Assembly: GCA_029881255.1 (NCBI GenBank) | Contig: JAOUMY010000004.1 | Location: forward strand, 271,313-335,312 | Length of the DNA: 64,000 nt | Source of the DNA: Gammaproteobacteria bacterium | GTDB taxonomy: Bacteria > Pseudomonadota > Gammaproteobacteria > S012-40 | Reading direction: 5' to 3' | Shown: positions 2 to 32,220 of the stretch, in pieces | How the letters are laid out: each line of letters starts with the position of its first letter | Position numbering within the stretch: position 1 is the first letter of the stretch | Notes under the pieces: generated by a model | Told to the model about the DNA's origin: nothing | The model's database searches: none | Seen by the model: only the letters and a program-made list of their open reading frames with translations | Translations under genes and position numbers: made by a program

Positions 2-1423
2 ACTCTCGGCATACGCGGTACCGATTTTACCGTAATGTATTGCCGATCCGATTGTGGCGAAGGTGAGCGAGGTGATACAAGCGCGCAAAACGGATTGTAT
101 GTTGGCGTAATCAGTGGTGGAGTTACGCTCCAGAATGAACTGGGAAACATTAACATCGGCGCCAATGAATACGGCTTTGTAAATGCGCTGGGTGATTTAC
201 CCAAGACCTTACGACAGGCACCTAGCTTTTTAATGTTTGATCGGACTCAGCGAGACGTTAGAAAAATTCAGGAACCAGAATCACGGCGCACCCGAGAAAA
301 TCCACCCGTCGGTAAGGAAGCCAATGAAGGGAAAAACGAATCGTCAACCCAGACGACAACATTTTCACCCGAACCAAGTGCAGTCATCGAATCCATTGCC
401 GAAGATGTACGCAAACAAGCGGCCTTAACTTCGCCATCACTCGGTGCCGCCGACAGTAGTTATGCACTGTTTGGAGACATGATGGAAAGTCGCTTCGGTT
501 CTGATGGAAATGTGCTGCTACCGTCTACGGAAAATGAAACAGTTTCATCGACCGCAGAGAGAGAGACAGTTGGGGAAGGTCTTCTTGGAATGTTAGAGCA
601 GGCAATGTCCAGTGATAGCGCCAACAATCTTGATGATCCTTTGAACACTATTCCAGGCGTGTCGACCAATCAAAACCAGGCTTTTTCTATGGCGACCGGC
701 TCTGTCGGTGGACGGATAGGCAGGCAGGTGATTAATCATAGCGAGGCTCGCGTCACAGGATATCGCGACAATCAGGTCGATGGCGTATTGGCTAATACCA
801 CCAATGATGCCTATTTGTTTACACAGACGCAGTACCTGTTTGACGGCACGCAACTGGATCTGGGTTACGATGCCACCACTGGATTACGCTGGGGGCGGTG
901 GGCAAGTGGAACCGTTACGTTTGAAGGCGAAACAGCCGACCCTTATTACACTCGTATCAAGGATCAGATGCATTGGGTCGCCGGAGACGAAAACAGCATG
1001 ATGCGTAGTCTACCGATTAGTGGAACGGCGACATACAGTCTCTATGGTGGCACGGCACCCACAGACAGCGCGGGCAATGTCGGCCAACTGGGCAGCGTGA
1101 CCTTAACCGCAGACTTCAATGCGCCTGCAATGGTGAGCAATGCGACAGTTGAACTCACCATCGATAACCAAAACTGGAAGGGTGAAGCGTCCACAATGCC
1201 GATACAAGCTGATACCGCGACGTTCTCGGGTCTTATGCAAGTCAATGTTACCTCGGACACCTCTGCGGGAAATCCAGGACTCGGCCATATCAGTGGTTTC
1301 TTCGTCGGCGGTGATAGTAGCACGGTGCCTAGCGGTGCAGGGATTAGTTATGAAATGACCGCTACATCAAATGGCGCCGCAAACACTGTGTCAGGTTCCG
1401 CTGCCTTGCGTAAGGATCCATAA
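2..1423 (+). CDS. FecR-domain protein, 5' end missing
   Basis: The frame is open from the first bases of the window, so the true start lies upstream. The first residues read GIRGTDFTV, followed by a YVGV-SGGV stretch and an 'ANEYGFV' segment. This is the signature of a FecR-type domain, a beta-rich extracytoplasmic domain known from sigma-regulator FecR and from many exported sensory or structural proteins. After a low-complexity, polar linker (roughly residues 70-210 of the visible part) comes a beta-rich C-terminal region full of alternating Gly/Thr/Ser, with motifs such as 'VTFEGE' and 'SGFFVGGD' that recall a small barrel or sandwich. The C-terminal region has no name I can give. No TM segment is seen in the visible part. 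The FecR assignment is family knowledge; the role (periplasmic or surface protein) is inference. The internal ATG at 35 would cut the FecR motif and is not the start. Confidence 0.7.
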   Translation, partial: TLGIRGTDFTVMYCRSDCGEGERGDTSAQNGLYVGVISGGVTLQNELGNINIGANEYGFVNALGDLPKTLRQAPSFLMFDRTQRDVRKIQEPESRRTRENPPVGKEANEGKNESSTQTTTFSPEPSAVIESIAEDVRKQAALTSPSLGAADSSYALFGDMMESRFGSDGNVLLPSTENETVSSTAERETVGEGLLGMLEQAMSSDSANNLDDPLNTIPGVSTNQNQAFSMATGSVGGRIGRQVINHSEARVTGYRDNQVDGVLANTTNDAYLFTQTQYLFDGTQLDLGYDATTGLRWGRWASGTVTFEGETADPYYTRIKDQMHWVAGDENSMMRSLPISGTATYSLYGGTAPTDSAGNVGQLGSVTLTADFNAPAMVSNATVELTIDNQNWKGEASTMPIQADTATFSGLMQVNVTSDTSAGNPGLGHISGFFVGGDSSTVPSGAGISYEMTATSNGAANTVSGSAALRKDP

Positions 1424-1611
1424 GCAACACAAGTAGCGTGCTTCAAATAATTGACATCATAATCCTCGCCAAGGAAGATAGAAGCATAAGCCTCGCGAGG
1501 GAATGCGTCCGTTGAATTTTCTCAATACCCATGCTTTCCCACGAAACTGTTCCTACAGACGTTATAGCGGATCAGCAATTAGCGCATAGCTATTGTTAAC
1601 GGGAGTTGTGT

Positions 1612-2556
1612 ATGGCATTTCCATTTCTAGGTGATGTGTTCAATCATTTTTTCGGTCTCGACTGGAATCTTCCTATACCGATGTTTGGTCTGTTTGTCGC
1701 AACTGCGATAGTTCTCGCTACTTATGTTGCCCGTAAAGAAGTAGAACGTTACCAGGGGCTCTCGCTGTTAGGCAGCGCTCGGGTGATCGTTTCGAAAACG
1801 GGCGAAACACAATGGATTCCTGTTCATGGCGTCATAAGCGATCTTGCTCTGGTATGCGCGATTGCCGGGATAGTTGGCGCGAGAGTTTTTCATATTCTTG
1901 AATATCCGTCTGACTTTCTCGGTGACCCTATGAGTATGATATTCACTCAGGGTGGTTTTTCCATTTATGGAGGCCTGGTATTTGGCTTTGTCGCCGGCAT
2001 AGTCTTTCTCCGCAAACGTGAAATACCCTTGTGGCCCATGCTCGATGCATTGTCACCGTCGCTGATTTTGGGTTATGCCATCGGGCGTGTAGGCTGTCAG
2101 ATTTCTGGTGATGGCGATTGGGGTATCGCAGCGGATCTCGGCTCGAAACCGGATTGGTTACCTCAATGGTTTTGGGCGCAGACCTATGAAAATAATGTCA
2201 TTGGAGTAGTCATACAGAGCCCCGGTGTCTATCCAACACCGCTTTATGAAGTCCTGATGGGCTTGCTTATCTTTGCCATACTCTGGAACGTGCGCAAGCG
2301 TTTTATGCCTTTGGGTATGATGTTTTTCCTCTATCTATTACTGAGTGGATTTGAGCGTCTTTTGATTGAACAGATCCGCATAAACACTGAGTATCGCCTG
2401 TTTAATCTCGCCTTTACCCAGGCGGAATTGATATCCACTTTGCTGATTATCATTGCAACTGTTGGTATCGTACGAGTTGCCCGTATGCATCGTTTGAATA
2501 GCGCGCTATTCGTCAGCTTCGTTAGTATATTGATGACTGCATGTATGTCACTGTAA
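1612..2556 (+). CDS. Prolipoprotein diacylglyceryl transferase (Lgt) family protein
   Basis: Multi-pass membrane protein of about 314 residues with the Lgt core: a 'GGFSIYGGL' segment, then GRVGCQISGDGDWG, then 'PTPLYEV' and a final 'FERLLIEQIRIN' helix. Lgt moves diacylglycerol from phosphatidylglycerol onto the lipobox cysteine of prolipoproteins in the inner membrane. The signature loop ends SGDGDWG rather than the NGE-type loop of enterobacterial Lgt; I know the GDGDWG form from Bacteroidota Lgt. A TTG at 1606 also opens the frame, but ATG 1612 has GGGAG seven bases before it and is preferred. The gene stands alone between FecR and the GFA operon, not next to thyA as in enterics. It may be a second, transferred copy or a paralogue with another substrate. 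Confidence 0.75.
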   Translation: MAFPFLGDVFNHFFGLDWNLPIPMFGLFVATAIVLATYVARKEVERYQGLSLLGSARVIVSKTGETQWIPVHGVISDLALVCAIAGIVGARVFHILEYPSDFLGDPMSMIFTQGGFSIYGGLVFGFVAGIVFLRKREIPLWPMLDALSPSLILGYAIGRVGCQISGDGDWGIAADLGSKPDWLPQWFWAQTYENNVIGVVIQSPGVYPTPLYEVLMGLLIFAILWNVRKRFMPLGMMFFLYLLLSGFERLLIEQIRINTEYRLFNLAFTQAELISTLLIIIATVGIVRVARMHRLNSALFVSFVSILMTACMSL

Positions 2557-17011: not shown

Positions 17012-19882
17012 ATGATGACACCCAAAGTAATCAGTATTCGGCAACGGTTTTTGGTTATTATGTCCTTGTTCGTCGGAATACTGCTGGTTGCCACCTTATA
17101 TACCTCTCACCAGTCGAAAGACTCTATCAAAAAGCAATACGAAATTGCCCATCGGCAAAACCATTTGAGCGACGTACTGAGTCTCCTTTCTGAGAACCTA
17201 CTGCAACTAGGTGTTTCTATTTACCAAAAGTCGTTTATTAGTGACCACATTGATCAAAAAGAGATCCATTCGCGCATATTGCGCGTTAGAGAACTTGCCG
17301 CAGAACTGGAAGACCCGAGCAATGTCGCCCTCCAGGAAAGAATTCAGACCCTCAGAGCTACACTGGACGTTATTTTTGATCAGGTTGGGACGCTTTTAAC
17401 GGTTCAGAAAGATGTCGAAAAACGCTTTTTGGCCATGCCTATCATGTTAAACGACCTTCGGCCGGCAAATGTGGATTTTATGACGGCCGTTGTCGATGGA
17501 CTCAATGATTTGCGGGTAGAGCGAGGTAATGATGAAGCTTCGGAATTATTTCGCGACATTCGCTATGAATGGTCACAATTAATCAGTTCAGTACGTGTTT
17601 TCGTAGCTAATCGTCTCGGTGCATTTGGGCCACCAGAGCTTTCAATGGAGGCCTCTGAGAACAATCGAAAAGTTTATGCGGAATCGGTTGCACTGGCATT
17701 AGTAAAGCTTGAAACGCTGAAGAAGCAGGGGCGTTTGGGGATAGTGCAGGAAAATGCCGTCGAACGTATGCGTAAGGCATTCGATGTTTATAATGTAAAG
17801 TTCAAACAAGTACAGGAAATCTATTATTCCGAAACCTGGCGTGCCGATCATTCTTTGATGCGCGACGGGATCGACCCCATGCTCAATACCGCGATTGGTA
17901 TTGTCAACGATATGCGCGCCATGCTTTCCGGAAACGTGGTTGAGGGGATAAGTCTCATCGAAGAGAGTACAGCTACTTTTTCTGAGACGATGTGGCTGGT
18001 GCTGGCATTAGTATTACTCGTGACTTTTATCGCCTATATTGGGTTTGAGTTACTAATACGCAGACCGCTTACGCAGATCGGTTTAGCCCTGGTTGCTGAA
18101 GGAGAAGGTAAAAAGTTTCAGCCTGCTCTTAGCCATCGCATATTAGAAACACAATTTCTTATCGATGCACTTGCGCGTATGCGTTCCCAGGTCCACGCGC
18201 GTCAGTTACGCCTCCAGTCTATACTCGACAATGCCGGTGAAGGCATTTTAATTATCGATAAGCTTGGTCGGATCGAAAGCCTGAATAAGGCTGCGGAAAT
18301 CGTGTTTGGCATGGACGAAGCCGAGATTGTTGGCAAGGGCGTAACCACCGTTATTCCTGCGTTTGAATCCATACGCAATCACAAAGATGCGGGCATGATG
18401 TCGGTATTGAAAAATCGAACCACCTTGCACCCGGAACAGGAAATAGAAGGCGTTAACAGCAAGATGGAAAGCTTTCCCATGTCAATACGCTTGGGGCGCG
18501 TATTGTTGGAAGGCGAAATACTTTACGTCGCGCTGGTATCAGATATTAGCGAACGCAAAGCCATGGTTGATCGACTCAAACAGCTTGCTGAACGCGATTC
18601 TCTGACAGGACTTTACAACAGACATTTTTTTATCGACGAACTTGATCGTGCGATTGAGCGCAATTTGCGCAATGAAAAACTCGACATTGCGCTGCTATAT
18701 CTCGACCTGGATAATTTTAAATACGTGAACGATACCTTGGGACATGTGGCTGGGGATAAGGTGTTGACCGATGTTTCCGACGTTCTGATTAATCGTGCAC
18801 GAGGAACCGATTTGGTAGTGCGACTCGGCGGAGACGAATTTGCCATATTGCTGTATAACTCCAGCGCGAAAGAGGCATTGGTGGCAGCTGAAGCATACAG
18901 ACGGCATCTTAGCGAATTTATATTTAACTATGAGGGGCAGATACTGGACATTGGTTGTTCTATTGGCATCGCCTTACTTGATGGGAGCATCAAAAACAAA
19001 GAAGAAATATTGTTACGCGCAGATCTGGCCTGCCATATTGCCAAGCGACTGGGTAGAAATCGAGTTTACTTTTTTGAGGAAAAAGACAAACAGAGCGCCG
19101 ACGCCATGTCACTGGATATGGGATGGGCCCGTAGGATAAAGAACAGCATTGAGAACAATTTGTTTGTCATGGATTGCCAGCCCATTATGTCGTTAAAGTC
19201 ACGACAGATTACCTCACACGAGGTATTGCTGCGTATGAAGGGCGAAAACGGTGATCTGATTATGCCATCAGGATTTTTACCCTCTGCTGAACGTTTTGGG
19301 CTAATTCAGGAAATTGATCGTTGGGTCATTCGTCATAGTATGCGTCATTTAATGCGCAATGAAGGTTATTCAGGTCGACGCTACGCAATCAATTTGTCAG
19401 CAAAATCTATCGGTGATCCGGAGATATTGGAACTCATACAGACGGAATTGGATAGGAATGCGGTCAATCCGAATAACGTCGTTTTTGAGGTCACCGAAAG
19501 TAGCGCGATTCAGAACATCAACGCCGCTGCGGAATTTTTAGCAAAACTTCAGGAATTAGGATTTAAAACCGCACTTGACGATTTTGGTGTCGGATATTCA
19601 TCGTTTTCATATTTAAAAGATCTCGCCGTTGATATCGTCAAAATTGACAAGTCATTTGTACAGAATGTAACGAATGATAAGGTTAAAAGGGCGATTGTTG
19701 CCTCAATGAATGATGTAGCACACGCCCTGGGTAAAGAAACTGTGGCAGAGTTCGTGGAAGATAGAGAAACCGTGGAATTTCTCGCTTCAATCGGAGTGGA
19801 TTATTGCCAAGGCTATTACATAGGTGAACCTCGCAAGACCATTAGAGACAATCACAAGGACAACATTGTCTATCTAAACTAG
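17012..19882 (+). CDS. Membrane GGDEF-EAL protein with PAS domain
   Basis: A 956-residue c-di-GMP enzyme. TM1 spans residues 11-31 and TM2 about 327-349, around a roughly 295-residue periplasmic helical sensor domain. A PAS domain (about 395-520) follows, then GGDEF (606-610) with an intact RxxD I-site (597-600), then EAL. The EAL signature reads EVLLR (737-741): Ala is replaced by Val but the E-x-L-x-R pattern is kept. 'LDDFGVGYSS' (855-864) and 'KIDKSFV' are also intact. Both cyclase and phosphodiesterase activity are possible; activity direction cannot be read from sequence. ATG 17012 or 17015 may start it. Confidence 0.92.
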   Translation: MMTPKVISIRQRFLVIMSLFVGILLVATLYTSHQSKDSIKKQYEIAHRQNHLSDVLSLLSENLLQLGVSIYQKSFISDHIDQKEIHSRILRVRELAAELEDPSNVALQERIQTLRATLDVIFDQVGTLLTVQKDVEKRFLAMPIMLNDLRPANVDFMTAVVDGLNDLRVERGNDEASELFRDIRYEWSQLISSVRVFVANRLGAFGPPELSMEASENNRKVYAESVALALVKLETLKKQGRLGIVQENAVERMRKAFDVYNVKFKQVQEIYYSETWRADHSLMRDGIDPMLNTAIGIVNDMRAMLSGNVVEGISLIEESTATFSETMWLVLALVLLVTFIAYIGFELLIRRPLTQIGLALVAEGEGKKFQPALSHRILETQFLIDALARMRSQVHARQLRLQSILDNAGEGILIIDKLGRIESLNKAAEIVFGMDEAEIVGKGVTTVIPAFESIRNHKDAGMMSVLKNRTTLHPEQEIEGVNSKMESFPMSIRLGRVLLEGEILYVALVSDISERKAMVDRLKQLAERDSLTGLYNRHFFIDELDRAIERNLRNEKLDIALLYLDLDNFKYVNDTLGHVAGDKVLTDVSDVLINRARGTDLVVRLGGDEFAILLYNSSAKEALVAAEAYRRHLSEFIFNYEGQILDIGCSIGIALLDGSIKNKEEILLRADLACHIAKRLGRNRVYFFEEKDKQSADAMSLDMGWARRIKNSIENNLFVMDCQPIMSLKSRQITSHEVLLRMKGENGDLIMPSGFLPSAERFGLIQEIDRWVIRHSMRHLMRNEGYSGRRYAINLSAKSIGDPEILELIQTELDRNAVNPNNVVFEVTESSAIQNINAAAEFLAKLQELGFKTALDDFGVGYSSFSYLKDLAVDIVKIDKSFVQNVTNDKVKRAIVASMNDVAHALGKETVAEFVEDRETVEFLASIGVDYCQGYYIGEPRKTIRDNHKDNIVYLN

Positions 19883-23301: not shown

Positions 23302-23322
23302 TCGATAAAATGCAATATAGGA

Positions 23323-23347
23323 AGGCGCCTCTATGGCGCCTTTTTTT
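23323..23347 (+). terminator. Terminator after clpA
   Basis: Stem AGGCGCC (23323-23329) / GGCGCCT (23335-23341) with 5-base loop and seven T. It overlaps the 3' end of the FnIII-like frame on the other strand. Confidence 0.9.
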
Positions 23348-23634
23348 ATTCTGCAACGGTGAATTCAAAAGGTTCACTTAATGAACCATGATTGAAATCG
23401 CCATAATACACATCCTCATTGCGGTCACGTGCATGTATCCGCCAATTGTAATATCCACCGGGTGTCAACAGACCTGGAGGCAGGGTGAGCGATGGTTGTG
23501 CAAGAAGTTGGCTGGTGTATATGACTTTTTCGCCGTCCCACACATCACGTATGTAAACCTGATACCATTTTGCATCCGGTACAGGTGTCCAATGCAGAGT
23601 CGCTGAGGAAACTATTGGCGGTTTTGCGCGACAT
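23346..23634 (-). pseudogene. FnIII-like small gene, frameshifted after its start
   Basis: Reading on the minus strand, an ATG at 23634 overlaps the TAA of the upstream CNB gene (TAATG). That frame gives MSRK and then stops after about 29 codons. The next frame is open over 95 codons and encodes 'LHWTPVPDAKWYQVYIRDV', 'LPPGLLTPGGYYNWRIHARD' and 'FEFTV', the strand pattern of a fibronectin type III domain. Dropping one A from the AAAA in CGCAAAACC joins the ATG to this frame as one 98-residue protein. It may be a true frameshift, a programmed shift or a sequencing error. Third member of the translocase/CNB operon. Confidence 0.55.
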
Positions 23635-24074
23635 TATTGTTTTTCCACTTTATTTGCGCGACGCAGGCGCAGACTCAGACTCTTTAACATTCCAAGCGCC
23701 AATTCCGGGTATTGAATGATCAGCGTGCGTAGTTTTTCCTTGTTTAAGGAGAGTACGGAAGTCTCCTCCAGTGCGTGAGCAGTGCCGGAACGGGGTTGTT
23801 CGTCCAGCAATACCATTTCGCCAAAACATTCTCCCGGTCCAAGTAAACAATAAAAGCCCTGCTCACTACTGCTGCCATCGAAAGAGATACCTATTTGGCC
23901 TTTTTGAATGAGGTACATCTGTTCACCGTAATCTCCCTGAGAAAATATTACATCATCCGTGTTGAACAGCTCTTCATCCAATACTCGGGCGACCACGGCG
24001 AGATCTTCCGTTCTGACACTGGAAAATATTTGCGAGTTTTTGAGTACTAATACCCGGTCAAAAATATCAAGCAT
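23634..24074 (-). CDS. Cyclic nucleotide-binding domain protein
   Basis: A 146-residue single CNB domain with no DNA-binding helix-turn-helix, unlike CRP/FNR regulators. The cassette reads 'GPGECFGEMVLLDEQPRSGTAHALE', with the Glu and the Arg that bind ribose and phosphate in cAMP-binding members. ATG 24074 has GGAG at good spacing; a GTG at 24086 is the alternative. It overlaps the translocase-HEAT gene by eight bases and probably acts with it, as a cyclic nucleotide switch. Confidence 0.85.
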   Translation of the reverse strand: MLDIFDRVLVLKNSQIFSSVRTEDLAVVARVLDEELFNTDDVIFSQGDYGEQMYLIQKGQIGISFDGSSSEQGFYCLLGPGECFGEMVLLDEQPRSGTAHALEETSVLSLNKEKLRTLIIQYPELALGMLKSLSLRLRRANKVEKQ

Positions 24075-26733
24075 AGCGTTCTCCACTATCTTGACCTGGA
24101 TTGAAGCTGTTTAGACATCCCCACATCCAAGGATCGGATAAGGGACTGCATTGTTGTTTCATTTTATCCAAAGTCCATGTATCCCGGCTGTGTATTTTCT
24201 CACTGATGTCGTAGATTCTGCCGACGGAGTCTATCAGTGAATTGGCAGACGGTTTGTCTCGAAATTCCAATAAGGTTTCCATCGCACTCTCAATAACATC
24301 TCGGCTTTTTGAATTAATGCCTGCAATGACTGATTCCACTAGATTCACGTCTTCAACGAATCCCGCTATGCGTAAAGAAAGTAGTAACATGTCTTCACAC
24401 CGTTCATTCAATAGCACAGGTAAGAGACTGCGATAATCATCATGTGTCTTCAACTGCTGTATGATAGCTTCATGCATCTCGGCATAGGCTTTGGTCTTGG
24501 AGACCGCCCATCGGTAGAGTTGTTTGTATTCATCGGTTTTTGGTTCTTTTTGCATAATCACGTCAACAATACTTTCTAAGGCGCGTGGCGGAAGCGGCGT
24601 CGATTTAAGCCACGCAACCAATGATGCCGCACTAAAGCCTCTATGAAAAAGGCTTACCGCACTTTCGCGACGCACATCGGGATGTGGGTCACAAAGCTTG
24701 CCGAGTAACAACTGATATCGCTGCTCCCAATCGAGCTGTGTGGCAATGCGCGCCGCAATTTGTCTGGCACGTGCATCATCGCTAGAGAGTAGCCTCTTTA
24801 CAATTGCAGCGATCTTTTTATCGTTTTCCAAGGGCATTTGACTGATCGCCCGTGCAGCCTGTCGTTGTACGCGTCGATCTGGGTGTAACGTCAACTCAAA
24901 GAGTCGTTCAAGGTGTTCTACGCCGTTTAGTCTTATCACGAGTTCCAGCCCAGAAAGGATCTCACCAGGATTGTCCGCATATAACAATTCAAACCACGCA
25001 TGTTTCGCCTGGTCTCGGAGACTATGTAAATCGTTTATCAATGCACCATAAACTCCGGTTGCGACCATGCGTGGATTTGTACTATTCATGGCAGCGTTGA
25101 TCTCATCGAGCATCGAAGCGCCATAGCGTCTGAACTGGTGGCGAACGATGGTAGCCTGTAAATGGACATCGCCCTGTAAATGTAGCTCTTCCAGTAATCG
25201 TTGGTGGTTGGTGTCGATGTAGTCGAAAAGAAGCACCATTAACCTGTCTTGATACGGCGGAGAAAAGCTGCGTACTACGGGCAAGACCAGCGATAATGAT
25301 TCTCTACCTAACACCCGCACGAGAGTCTTACAGGCTGCAAAACGGATCTCTTCGTCGTCCAGCATGACCCCTTTTTTAAGCATTTCCAGGGTTTCTGAGT
25401 GTTTGTCACTGGCAGTGAAGATGCTGCGGTCGGGGACGTAGACTTTCTGTCTAAGATTAGCAATTAGCGTTGGCGCATAGGCCCGGTTCATTTTGTAATT
25501 ACTAATTAGAAAACCAAGTGAAAACACGAGACCAGCGATAACAAGCCCGATGTCCCATTGCAGAGACTGCAGGCCATATAAAACCAGCCCGGAGGCGATT
25601 AGGGCGAAGGGTAGAATTAACCCTACCGAAACTGCTCTTATGCGTCCCTGAACTTGCCTTGGAAAGGCCGTATAGAAAATACTCTGCACCGGATTGCGAA
25701 ACACCGGCATGATGACGTCACGAGCAAAATAGGCAAATGCTGCCATAGGCAATACAAACCAACCCAGCAGACCGAGATAGCTGATGCACAGCGCAAATGG
25801 AAAAATCAGGTTGACCTTTTGTACGCCGAAGCGACGCATCACGCGATTGCTGGCAACTAATTGTAAGACCAGCGCCAGCGCAGCATTTACCGCTAGCAAC
25901 AGGCCAAGAAACGCAGCAAGCTCAGATTCCAATGCGAAGGCTTCAGTGAATATTTTGTTTCCGGTATAGGTAAGGACGTAAAAAGAAATAACCATAAAGA
26001 AAAACGCGAAGCCCATGGTGGTCAACAAAGCTGACCTTGTTGCGTAAGCTATTCCTTCACGCAAATGAGAAACTGCTTCGCCCAATAAGTTTTGGCTTTT
26101 TCGACCCGGACGGAAGTAGGGTGAGGCACCGTTCTTTTGGTGATAACGGTTAACCAGTGAGGCTGCCAGTACGAAACAGCCAAACCAAATGAGCAAGGTA
26201 TGATGAATATCCAGTACAGGGCTGAGAAGTGCTAGCAACACTCCACCCACTATAAAACCCGCTTGTGATCCGGCAAACACAAGAGGCAATAGGCGTTTGA
26301 CTTGTTGCGTGGAAAAGTTCTGTGTCACGTACATCGAGAGGTGGAGCAGGAGGACTTCTGAAACGATTTCATAGACGACGTAATAGACCGGGTAAATCGT
26401 ATCGGTCACGTGTCTTGCCATCACTAGCCAGCAAACCAATAGCGTTGTGCTGGTCAGATAGAGAAAACGGGTCAATAGTTTATTCGAGGAAATCTGATCT
26501 ACGACGGCGGTGTAAATTAGGAACACCAGTATCAGCACCAGTCCGTTGATAGAGAATAGAATGGGGAGAAATTCTATTCCGTAACGTTTGAGAAATAAGA
26601 CATCGACCGAGCCTCTGCCCAAAGAAAGGCCACAACCAACAAGAAAAAATACGAAGGCAAAATACTGCACCGCACGCCGCTCGTTTGGGCGTATCAGTAG
26701 TCCCTCATATAACTTGTTTGTCCCGGATTGCAT
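24067..26733 (-). CDS. Nucleotide translocase (NTT)-like membrane protein fused to HEAT repeats
   Basis: Start ATG 26733 has AGGA upstream and gives 888 residues. Residues about 15-420 form 10-12 membrane helices with the MFS/NTT-like start 'NERRAVQYFAFVFFLVGCGLSLGRGSVDVLF' and the 'RGRIRAVSVG' loop; the likeness is to ATP/ADP-translocase-type proteins. From about 450 to 880 runs a cytoplasmic series of HEAT-type helix pairs ('DDEEIRFAACKTLVRVLG', 'HPDRRVQRQAARAISQMP', 'HPDVRRESAVSLFHRG'). It is transcribed with the CNB gene. Substrate is not shown; free-living bacteria have such fusions of unknown role. Confidence 0.75.
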   Translation of the reverse strand: MQSGTNKLYEGLLIRPNERRAVQYFAFVFFLVGCGLSLGRGSVDVLFLKRYGIEFLPILFSINGLVLILVFLIYTAVVDQISSNKLLTRFLYLTSTTLLVCWLVMARHVTDTIYPVYYVVYEIVSEVLLLHLSMYVTQNFSTQQVKRLLPLVFAGSQAGFIVGGVLLALLSPVLDIHHTLLIWFGCFVLAASLVNRYHQKNGASPYFRPGRKSQNLLGEAVSHLREGIAYATRSALLTTMGFAFFFMVISFYVLTYTGNKIFTEAFALESELAAFLGLLLAVNAALALVLQLVASNRVMRRFGVQKVNLIFPFALCISYLGLLGWFVLPMAAFAYFARDVIMPVFRNPVQSIFYTAFPRQVQGRIRAVSVGLILPFALIASGLVLYGLQSLQWDIGLVIAGLVFSLGFLISNYKMNRAYAPTLIANLRQKVYVPDRSIFTASDKHSETLEMLKKGVMLDDEEIRFAACKTLVRVLGRESLSLVLPVVRSFSPPYQDRLMVLLFDYIDTNHQRLLEELHLQGDVHLQATIVRHQFRRYGASMLDEINAAMNSTNPRMVATGVYGALINDLHSLRDQAKHAWFELLYADNPGEILSGLELVIRLNGVEHLERLFELTLHPDRRVQRQAARAISQMPLENDKKIAAIVKRLLSSDDARARQIAARIATQLDWEQRYQLLLGKLCDPHPDVRRESAVSLFHRGFSAASLVAWLKSTPLPPRALESIVDVIMQKEPKTDEYKQLYRWAVSKTKAYAEMHEAIIQQLKTHDDYRSLLPVLLNERCEDMLLLSLRIAGFVEDVNLVESVIAGINSKSRDVIESAMETLLEFRDKPSANSLIDSVGRIYDISEKIHSRDTWTLDKMKQQCSPLSDPWMWGCLNSFNPGQDSGERYA

Positions 26734-29076: not shown

Positions 29077-32000
29077 CTAATCGAAATGTGCCGGGTATCC
29101 TACAGAGAACGACGTGCTTTCCCCTGAATAACGATCGGCGATATGAACGCCGTACTCGTCTCCTATGTAGACAATTCCGTCTTCAGCATCAATCGCCATC
29201 GAGTAAGGGCGGTTGAATGCTGGGATACTGTTACGTCGAGCATACACAACACCGTCTCTATCTCCTGTCGAAGGTTCAACCGACATCACGGCGTTTAAAT
29301 CATTGTCTACTGTGTATAACATTCGAGTGGATTTATCGAAGCGCAAATCTTGAATGTCATCGAAATTCACGCCCCAGCCGATTGTATAGTCCTGATCGGT
29401 AATCTCGTCATAATAGTAACCGGAAACAATCTCCGCGTTTGGCGTCTCAGCATTGAGATCTATTTCCAGGACTTTCTCAGAATCGTCCAGCACGTACAGC
29501 AAGCCCTTTTCTTCATCAAGAGCGAGTGCAGTAGGATTGGACAACCAGTAATAATCGTTTGGAACGCTATCTTCATCATCTATATATCCATATACGTAGG
29601 TGCGATTTCCATTTGTGAGATCGATTGCAAAAATGACATCGTCGCCTGAATCAGAAACTAAAAGACGATTGTGCGTTTTATCCAACACGATATCCTGCGG
29701 TCGGTCAAAACTCGATCCTTCCCCGACATATTCCCCAGTATCGTAATCATATCCCGAAAATATGGAACGATTGCCGGTATCCAGATCGACCTTGAAGATT
29801 GCCTCATAGTCCTCATCCGTTACATACGCCATATTGGCGTCTACATCGACGACAAAATCATTGAGGTCATCAAACTCAGGACCATCACCGACACCGTTAC
29901 CGGATAGTATTGTTCTTTCGCCAGCTGAAAGGCTAACCTGGAACATTACGGCTTGACTTTTATCCAGACCAACCAGCCTATTGTGTACCTTGTCCAGTTC
30001 CAATTCGTCGGCACTGAACGCCGGACCGGTACCAAGAACGGTGGCGTAAACAGTCGTTCGATTACCGTTTACGGGATTGATACTAACTATTTTGCTTCCA
30101 TACGACAGAATGGCGATTATTTGATTTGTCGCTTGGTCAAAATGAATTTGCGTCATGTTTAAAAGTGAATCGCCAGTCCCTCGGCTGTCACTACTGATCA
30201 CACTGCGATTTCCGTTACTAATATCAATTGCCAGAATGCGATTTTCATTCGGTTCCATTAAAAAGACGCGGCCATTGATGGAATCATTCTCGAGCAAGCT
30301 TGAATTCGCGCCGAATGATTCACCACTACCAATTTCATCAAACTCCGAAACCGTTGTACGGTTTCCCGTTTCGATATCAACAGCTACCAGTCGCTGTGAT
30401 GATGAGTCATAGACGTAGATAACTTCACCGTTGACTGTTAGTCCTGAGGGCGCAGAAAACGCACCGCCAGTTCCGTATGCTGCATTCGATACAAAGCGTC
30501 GTTCACCGGTGGAACGATTAATGGCGGCGACTGCGTTATTCGCGGCATCAAGATAGATGATATCTTCTCCGAGTATAGCCAGTTCCTTAACTGAGTAAAG
30601 AACCAATCGGCCAACCTGATTGTTTGCAATAATCTTGGAAGTGTTATCTGCAAGAAAATACGATCTTAATTCATCGTTTATCCAATCTATTGTCAATAAT
30701 CGGTCATTCACATCGTCATATACCAGATCAGAAATATATGTACTCGTTGGCGGCGTTTTACTTGTACGATTGCCAGTTTCCAGATCGACCTCTATGACGC
30801 TGCGATACCAGTTACCGAACCAGACTTTACTTCCATCCGAACTGGCTGTCATACCATATCCGCTTGACCAATTACTTCCTGTGCCAATACCATCTGCTGA
30901 ACTCGAGAGTATTGTTTTTTCGCCATCGCTTATTGCAACGCCTACCAATTTATTTGAATCAGACACTAAAAGCGAACTCGCATCCCCAGACATCACCATA
31001 TCAGCTGGGTTACTAAAACCACCGGTCAGCTCAACACGGTCCCCGATCACAGTAGTTTCTGTAGCAGATAACAGAACCTCTACAATTGTTGCACTCGATC
31101 CACTTCCACTCAGAACGAACAGTCTATTGCTGTCGGCGTCATGAGCGAGTGCACGTGGCGAAATTGTTGGACCAGTTCCTACTGAGCCACTAGAGAGAAC
31201 AGTCCGATCTCCACTCGTTAGGTCGACTGCGATGATATGTCCTGAGTAATAGCCGGCAACCAGCAATCGAGTATTTGAAGAATCGACAACCATGTCATAG
31301 ATCGAACCAAAATGTGTTCCTGCACCAACAGACGGGGAGGACAAAATTCTACGTTCCCCTGTGCGAACATTAACTTCCGCAATGCCATTTCCGTTGTCAT
31401 CGGCTATATATGCCTTTTGAGATTCTGGGTCGTAAGCGATACGTTTTGCATAATTGCTGATATTCGGTCCGGCCTGAGATTCAGATGACACAATTTCGCC
31501 ATCGCCGGTTCCCAGGTCGATGCTTTTTAAGTCGCCTTCGTTAGTATCAACAAATATTATTCGGCCTGTGGCTTCCTCACGCACCATTGCACCTATGCGA
31601 CCCACATAAATACTTTCGTTGTTGCTATAGGAATAAATCTTTTCCCCAAAACCGGTTGTTGGATCGATAGAGTACATGCCACGCAGTGAAGAATCCGCCA
31701 CCAGCGCTCGGGAACTACCTGGTAAGTACGAAATATCCAATACGTTTTTGAGTAAAACGCCTTTATTTATAACCGTAACTGTTTCGCTCGTAATACCTTT
31801 GGTACCATTTGCGTTGGTTATTTCCACCTTTAGGGTGTTTTCTCCGAGGGTCAGCGGTACTTCTGCCACCCAGTTTTGGAAACTGTTGTCGCTTTGTGCT
31901 TCAGACGCATTGACCTTAATGGCAGTAATCTGGCTACTTTTCTCACTTATGCCTGAGACGCGTAAGACATTGGTGGCGACTATGGCATTATTGTAGGGGA

Positions 32001-32220
32001 AGGTTATGACCGCCGGAGAAGTAGTTAAGCGTCTGACTGATCCAGATCCGGAAAAGCCACTACTACCACTACTACTATTCCCGCCACTGCCACCACCGAC
32101 GGTTGAGCTTGTTCCAGGACTTGTCGTATCCGATACATCAACTGTTGTGGCTTTACCACAAGCTAATAGCAGCACGGAAATTAGACTGGTTAAAATTAAT
32201 GATGCGAAAGTATTCTTCAC
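29077..32220 (-). CDS. Large lipoprotein with about 18 beta-propeller-type repeats
   Basis: A 1047-residue exported lipoprotein. Lipobox LLAC with Cys21 and Gly at +2 suggests outer-membrane sorting. After a Gly/Ser-rich linker comes an Ig-like part (about 68-152), then from about 157 to the end roughly 18 units of 45-60 residues. Each unit has the form 'xRLLVxDxxxxxIxAVDLxTGxRTxLS' followed by a loop such as GxGTGP. This is a propeller repeat related to NHL/YWTD-like folds; 18 would make two or three propellers. The target is unknown. Own promoter and palindromic operator at 32254-32285; GAGGAG ribosome site. Confidence 0.85.
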   Translation of the reverse strand: MKNTFASLILTSLISVLLLACGKATTVDVSDTTSPGTSSTVGGGSGGNSSSGSSGFSGSGSVRRLTTSPAVITFPYNNAIVATNVLRVSGISEKSSQITAIKVNASEAQSDNSFQNWVAEVPLTLGENTLKVEITNANGTKGITSETVTVINKGVLLKNVLDISYLPGSSRALVADSSLRGMYSIDPTTGFGEKIYSYSNNESIYVGRIGAMVREEATGRIIFVDTNEGDLKSIDLGTGDGEIVSSESQAGPNISNYAKRIAYDPESQKAYIADDNGNGIAEVNVRTGERRILSSPSVGAGTHFGSIYDMVVDSSNTRLLVAGYYSGHIIAVDLTSGDRTVLSSGSVGTGPTISPRALAHDADSNRLFVLSGSGSSATIVEVLLSATETTVIGDRVELTGGFSNPADMVMSGDASSLLVSDSNKLVGVAISDGEKTILSSSADGIGTGSNWSSGYGMTASSDGSKVWFGNWYRSVIEVDLETGNRTSKTPPTSTYISDLVYDDVNDRLLTIDWINDELRSYFLADNTSKIIANNQVGRLVLYSVKELAILGEDIIYLDAANNAVAAINRSTGERRFVSNAAYGTGGAFSAPSGLTVNGEVIYVYDSSSQRLVAVDIETGNRTTVSEFDEIGSGESFGANSSLLENDSINGRVFLMEPNENRILAIDISNGNRSVISSDSRGTGDSLLNMTQIHFDQATNQIIAILSYGSKIVSINPVNGNRTTVYATVLGTGPAFSADELELDKVHNRLVGLDKSQAVMFQVSLSAGERTILSGNGVGDGPEFDDLNDFVVDVDANMAYVTDEDYEAIFKVDLDTGNRSIFSGYDYDTGEYVGEGSSFDRPQDIVLDKTHNRLLVSDSGDDVIFAIDLTNGNRTYVYGYIDDEDSVPNDYYWLSNPTALALDEEKGLLYVLDDSEKVLEIDLNAETPNAEIVSGYYYDEITDQDYTIGWGVNFDDIQDLRFDKSTRMLYTVDNDLNAVMSVEPSTGDRDGVVYARRNSIPAFNRPYSMAIDAEDGIVYIGDEYGVHIADRYSGESTSFSVGYPAHFD

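Follow-up and report, generated by a model that had tools for sequence, protein, structure and literature searches.

A conserved NTT-like transporter with a HEAT-repeat tail and its cyclic-nucleotide-binding partner in a gammaproteobacterial genome and its relatives

A transporter carrying a long HEAT-repeat tail and a small stand-alone cyclic-nucleotide-binding (CNB) protein form a conserved unit, which is encoded on the reverse strand at 26733–23634 of a 64,000-nucleotide stretch of gammaproteobacterial DNA (the window). We infer that the pair most likely works as a transporter gated by cAMP, whose substrate is something other than ATP or ADP, and consider the chances of this reading, in which gating, ligand and substrate are all deduced, to be about even. 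The transporter, with the NTT (major facilitator) fold, and the CNB subunit would constitute one membrane complex, in which the cytoplasmic HEAT tail carries the CNB subunit. Binding of cAMP, or possibly cGMP, to this subunit would alter the HEAT tail and so turn transport up or down. It is improbable that the substrate is ATP/ADP in an exchange of the classical NTT type. An exported Ig/Fn3-like protein of two domains may, in most relatives, act together with the complex from the periplasm, as an accessory, receptor or substrate-presenting subunit.

Gene organisation and conservation of the pair

The open reading frames and their translations resolve the region into two intact genes and one remnant. 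The transporter (P0001, 888 aa, 24067..26733, reverse strand) was delimited by its reading frame, Pfam, profile comparison and the model of a relative. It consists of an NTT/MFS-fold membrane domain at approximately residues 10–425 and HEAT repeats at approximately residues 436–870. The CNB protein (P0002, 146 aa, 23634..24074, reverse strand) was delimited by its ATG start, Pfam and homologues. The ORF caller placed the start at GTG 24086, and ATG 24074 is preferred as the likely true start on the basis of homologues and sequence. This ATG lies inside ATGCTTGA, so that the CNB gene overlaps the transporter stop by 8 nt, an arrangement that recurs in seven relatives. The remnant of a third gene follows at 23346..23633 on the same strand, encoding 94 aa with a C-terminal Fn3-like domain only; the preliminary description had taken 23633–23346 into its range without naming it. 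The convergent clpA is separated from the operon remnant by a GC-rich hairpin (23319..23345, no strand assigned), whose 11-pair stem is the longest among ten candidates and which is likely a terminator common to clpA and the operon. An Rfam search returned no RNA elements. Elsewhere in the window, the reverse strand at 29077–32220 encodes a large protein of 1047 aa, which has a lipoprotein-like N-terminus (LISVLLLACG) as well as many beta-propeller-blade-like repeats.

Relatives were collected by searching the whole class and scanning named genomes, which yielded 43 non-redundant close relatives. A relatives search with the lone window protein returned none, and an alignment query returned 44. 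The named records belong to Gammaproteobacteria, Proteobacteria or lower gammaproteobacterial groups, with one labelled Betaproteobacteria. The window genome itself has a single transporter copy, and a search of 12 genomes from its family yielded none.

Conserved pairing across genomes had been set beforehand as one test of the proposed unit, and it was borne out. In 40 of the 43 relatives the contig runs far enough for the pairing to be judged, and in all 40 the CNB gene either adjoins the transporter gene (36 relatives, gap -74 to +15 nt) or is fused to it (4 relatives). At more distant NTT-HEAT loci, at approximately 20–25% identity, a CNB gene likewise often adjoins, sometimes upstream, and several of these loci show it in either order. 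Tree distances of the two proteins, computed for the close clade, correlate with r = 0.76, a value reached in 0 of 999 permutations. Chance adjacency of unrelated genes, for which no evidence was found, is ruled out for practical purposes by the 40 adjoining or fused cases, and the occurrence of CNB genes in either order at distant loci makes it vanishingly improbable. As fusion, overlap and co-inheritance all occur, the transporter and the CNB protein may be expected to form one complex. One fused transporter-CNB protein (L052, 5329–7572) has only 747 aa and is devoid of most of the HEAT region.

The membrane domain and its exchange residues

In Pfam, P0001 matches HEAT_2 (2.4e-11) and, under the cut-off of that family, MFS_1 (1.1e-05). 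No match over the curated cut-off of TLC (PF03219) was obtained for P0001 or elsewhere in its own genome, and one of 12 aligned proteins matched TLC, at 0.0033. Comparison of the clade profile with canonical NTTs by hhalign gave a probability of 98.4% and an E value of 7.5e-15 across the whole domain. The predicted model of L114, a relative in which transporter and CNB are naturally fused (1041 aa, mean pLDDT 91), has AtNTT1 (9j3m) as its top structural match (Z 38.4, rmsd 2.6 Å, 408 residues), above LacY (Z 29.4). Given this profile homology and structural match, the membrane domain is NTT-derived. The window protein thereby joins an NTT-related membrane domain to C-terminal HEAT repeats, in agreement with the NTT/MFS-like transporter with a long HEAT tail first described for this locus.

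Four charged residues of AtNTT1, K155, E245, E385 and K527, are reported to be crucial for ATP transport (PMC10654386). They were placed by sequence, and the matching clade columns were taken from two alignments, a joint one and that of hhalign. At the K155 column, all 34 aligned clade members carry Tyr or Phe. Cys, Thr, Ala, Ser, Gly or Asn predominate in the E385 column; these six commonest residues, none of them acidic, account for 30 of the 34 sequences. The K527 column holds Leu in 33 members and Tyr in one in the joint alignment, and a residue other than Lys in that of hhalign. Only the Glu equivalent to E245 is retained, in 32 of 34. Although this reading rests on alignments at 10–18% identity, the two independent alignments agree on the loss of K155, E385 and K527, so that the essential residues of NTT ATP/ADP translocases are not retained as a set. 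Distant NTT-HEAT proteins likewise have neither K155 nor K527.

Because three of the four key residues are replaced by others conserved in the clade, classical ATP/ADP exchange appears unlikely for this transporter. The name "nucleotide translocase" used in the preliminary description is thus apt for the fold, but doubtful for the function, and the residue loss speaks against a default annotation as an ATP transporter. The membrane domain of the clade has many invariant polar residues of its own and therefore looks like a working transporter for a different substrate.

A cAMP-gated nucleotide transporter, for ATP/ADP or an NAD-type substrate, would correspond to the view of Major et al. (PMC5381601). 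In such a system, the CNB subunit would read cAMP as an energy signal and adjust uptake accordingly. The NTT fold, the profile homology and the E245-equivalent Glu in 32 of 34 sequences are all consistent with this, and departures at K155 and E385 occur in some NTT homologues of microsporidia as well (PMC10654386). However, the replacement of K155, E385 and K527 extends across the clade and P0001 stays under the Pfam TLC threshold, which leaves nucleotide transport an unlikely alternative to a cAMP-gated transporter of another substrate.

The CNB protein and its second-messenger context

P0002 is matched by the Pfam family cNMP_binding (PF00027) at 9.8e-22, with 77.2 bits against a cut-off of 27.5. 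The phosphate-binding cassette region, located by alignment of homologues at 23787..23846 on the reverse strand (LGPGECFGEMVLLDEQPRSG), reads FGEM...PRSGTA and contains the ligand-contacting Glu and Arg, which grip the cyclic phosphate, as had been claimed for this domain. These are E90 (23819–23817) and R99 (23792–23790), both on the reverse strand; together with G89, they are invariant in 15 aligned homologues. The pocket is, judged by its residues, of the cAMP/cGMP type, and the small protein is very probably a sensor of cAMP, or possibly of cGMP. A c-di-nucleotide, which had been offered as another possible ligand, finds no support in a pocket with the FGE...PRSGTA signature of the cAMP/cGMP type. 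Since the CNB partner is a stand-alone protein, ligand binding and gating are easily testable.

Not all CNB folds bind nucleotides, and the CNB subunit might be a ligand-free, purely structural part of the complex. The window protein reads RSGTA, as against RSATA or RSASA in nearly all homologues, which could point in this direction. Such a role is nevertheless improbable, given the invariance of E90 and R99 and the stronger conservation of the CNB protein, which is 46–55% identical to its counterparts at the same position in close relatives, whereas the transporter is only approximately 30% identical.

The window genome encodes six class III cyclases, none of them close to the locus (the nearest is 45 kb away), and has 17 CNB-domain matches. 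Class III cyclases occur in the fetched flanks of the locus in 8 of the 43 relatives, compared with 0.44 expected from the background density (Poisson p ~2e-8, for a count made post hoc over related genomes that are not independent). Five of the eight have CHASE2 sensor domains, and several are convergent with the operon. This neighbourhood backs the link to cyclic nucleotides as supporting evidence only. With the cyclases of the own genome and the enrichment beside the loci of relatives, the earlier suggestion that a cyclic-nucleotide-gated unit is plausible gains weight.

The window also encodes a membrane protein of 956 aa in which GGDEF and EAL motifs occur (17012–19882, forward strand). 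Together with the 17 CNB matches and the six cyclases, it makes this genome rich in parts for nucleotide second messengers. In one relative, a CNB-GGDEF protein lies immediately upstream of the operon (L043, 4815–5798), hinting at cross-talk between cAMP and c-di-GMP.

The exported third protein and comparison with known systems

A gene of approximately 240–250 aa accompanies the pair in 31 of the 43 relatives (29 downstream, 2 upstream), is present as fragments in two more and is absent in six with sufficient sequence. An N-terminal hydrophobic segment of the signal-peptide type is found in all 29 full-length copies aligned, one of which has a lipobox, and the protein is by this feature a predicted exported one. 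The model (pLDDT 88.7) comprises two beta-sandwich domains of the Ig/Fn3 type. Pfam and NCBIfam searches gave no meaningful match for the protein. Structural matches to cytokine-receptor ectodomains were dismissed as having no functional meaning, as they lie below Z 10 and reflect the common Fn3 fold.

Among 368 other genomes of the class, the full-length third gene occurs in 11 of the 15 with the locus and in none of the 353 without it (p = 4e-18, uncorrected for phylogeny). In a phylum-wide search, genomes that do not bear the locus returned weak partial matches only. The third gene is a new and specific handle on the function of the system. Two further copies were observed: one stands alone, away from the NTT-HEAT locus, and is convergent with a nearby class III cyclase (genome G055, L082, the two genes at 1498–2181, reverse strand, and 123–932, forward strand). 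The other, a second copy on contig C265 of genome G164 (L083, L084), has internal stop codons and represents a further case of decay.

In the window, the remnant corresponds to family positions 154–247 of 247, shares the frame of the CNB stop codon and has neither a signal peptide nor an early in-frame ATG. The TAATG start is still there, overlapping the CNB stop, and opens into another frame. The third gene is broken here, and the two-gene core can therefore exist without the third protein, which cannot be indispensable. A programmed frameshift joining CNB to the third domain was also considered, and judged unlikely because the remnant runs in frame past the TAA, the persisting start is in another frame and approximately 150 family codons are missing.

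The exported partner bears on the role of the membrane domain, which could instead be a receptor or scaffold that senses a ligand, perhaps with the Ig-like protein, while the HEAT and CNB parts relay its state to cAMP-dependent partners. The two domains of the exported protein are arranged like those of receptor ectodomains, cyclases are close by, and HEAT repeats usually bind proteins. This role seems rather doubtful, as the many invariant polar residues of the membrane domain and its well-formed MFS-type model fit an active transporter better. For the cAMP-gated transporter itself, a more ambitious version can be proposed tentatively, though it is rather unlikely in its full form: a three-part trans-envelope device in which a transporter of NTT descent with a new specificity works together with a cytoplasmic cAMP-sensing subunit on its HEAT tail and with a dedicated partner, an exported protein of two Ig domains, often beside an adenylate cyclase. 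In that event, a cue from outside and the cAMP level of the cell would jointly control one transport step.

The architecture and the cAMP hypothesis have been known since 2017. Major, Embley and Williams reported NTT-HEAT proteins in free-living bacteria, whose genes are followed within a few nucleotides by a cNBD gene or fused to it, and proposed control by cAMP; NTT-HEAT-cNBD proteins occur widely among bacteria and also in oomycetes (PMC5381601). The statement in the preliminary description that the role had not been described holds for experiments, but not for the architecture and the hypothesis. A literature search found no experimental study of NTT-HEAT-cNBD proteins, and none after 2017 characterising them. 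The window locus shares this architecture, its cNBD gene adjoining with the 8-nt overlap or being fused in relatives. The text of that paper says nothing of the residues essential to NTTs, of an exported third gene or of cyclases nearby (PMC5381601). New, as far as searched, are the replacement of the transport residues, the third partner with its predicted export, and the cyclases beside the loci.

With canonical NTTs (AtNTT1, Chlamydia NTT1; PF03219; PDB 9j3j-9j3o), the clade shares fold and profile homology, as well as the (A)KR motif and the Glu that corresponds to E245 of AtNTT1. Unlike them, it has K155, E385 and K527 replaced and a HEAT tail and CNB partner added, and the window protein has no TLC match. 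A functional analogue is SLC9C1, the cAMP-regulated sperm Na+/H+ exchanger, in which a cytoplasmic CNB domain also regulates transport. It differs in its unrelated transporter fold, its single chain and its voltage sensor. Foldseek ranks SLC9C1 first, but with a TM of 0.12 in a piecewise match. A solute transporter directly gated by a cyclic nucleotide would be rare, SLC9C1 being the clear example known. SthK, other CNB-gated channels and the CRP family likewise have a CNB domain with this ligand cassette. There, the output is a channel or, in the CRP family, DNA binding, whereas here it would be a transporter with a HEAT tail.
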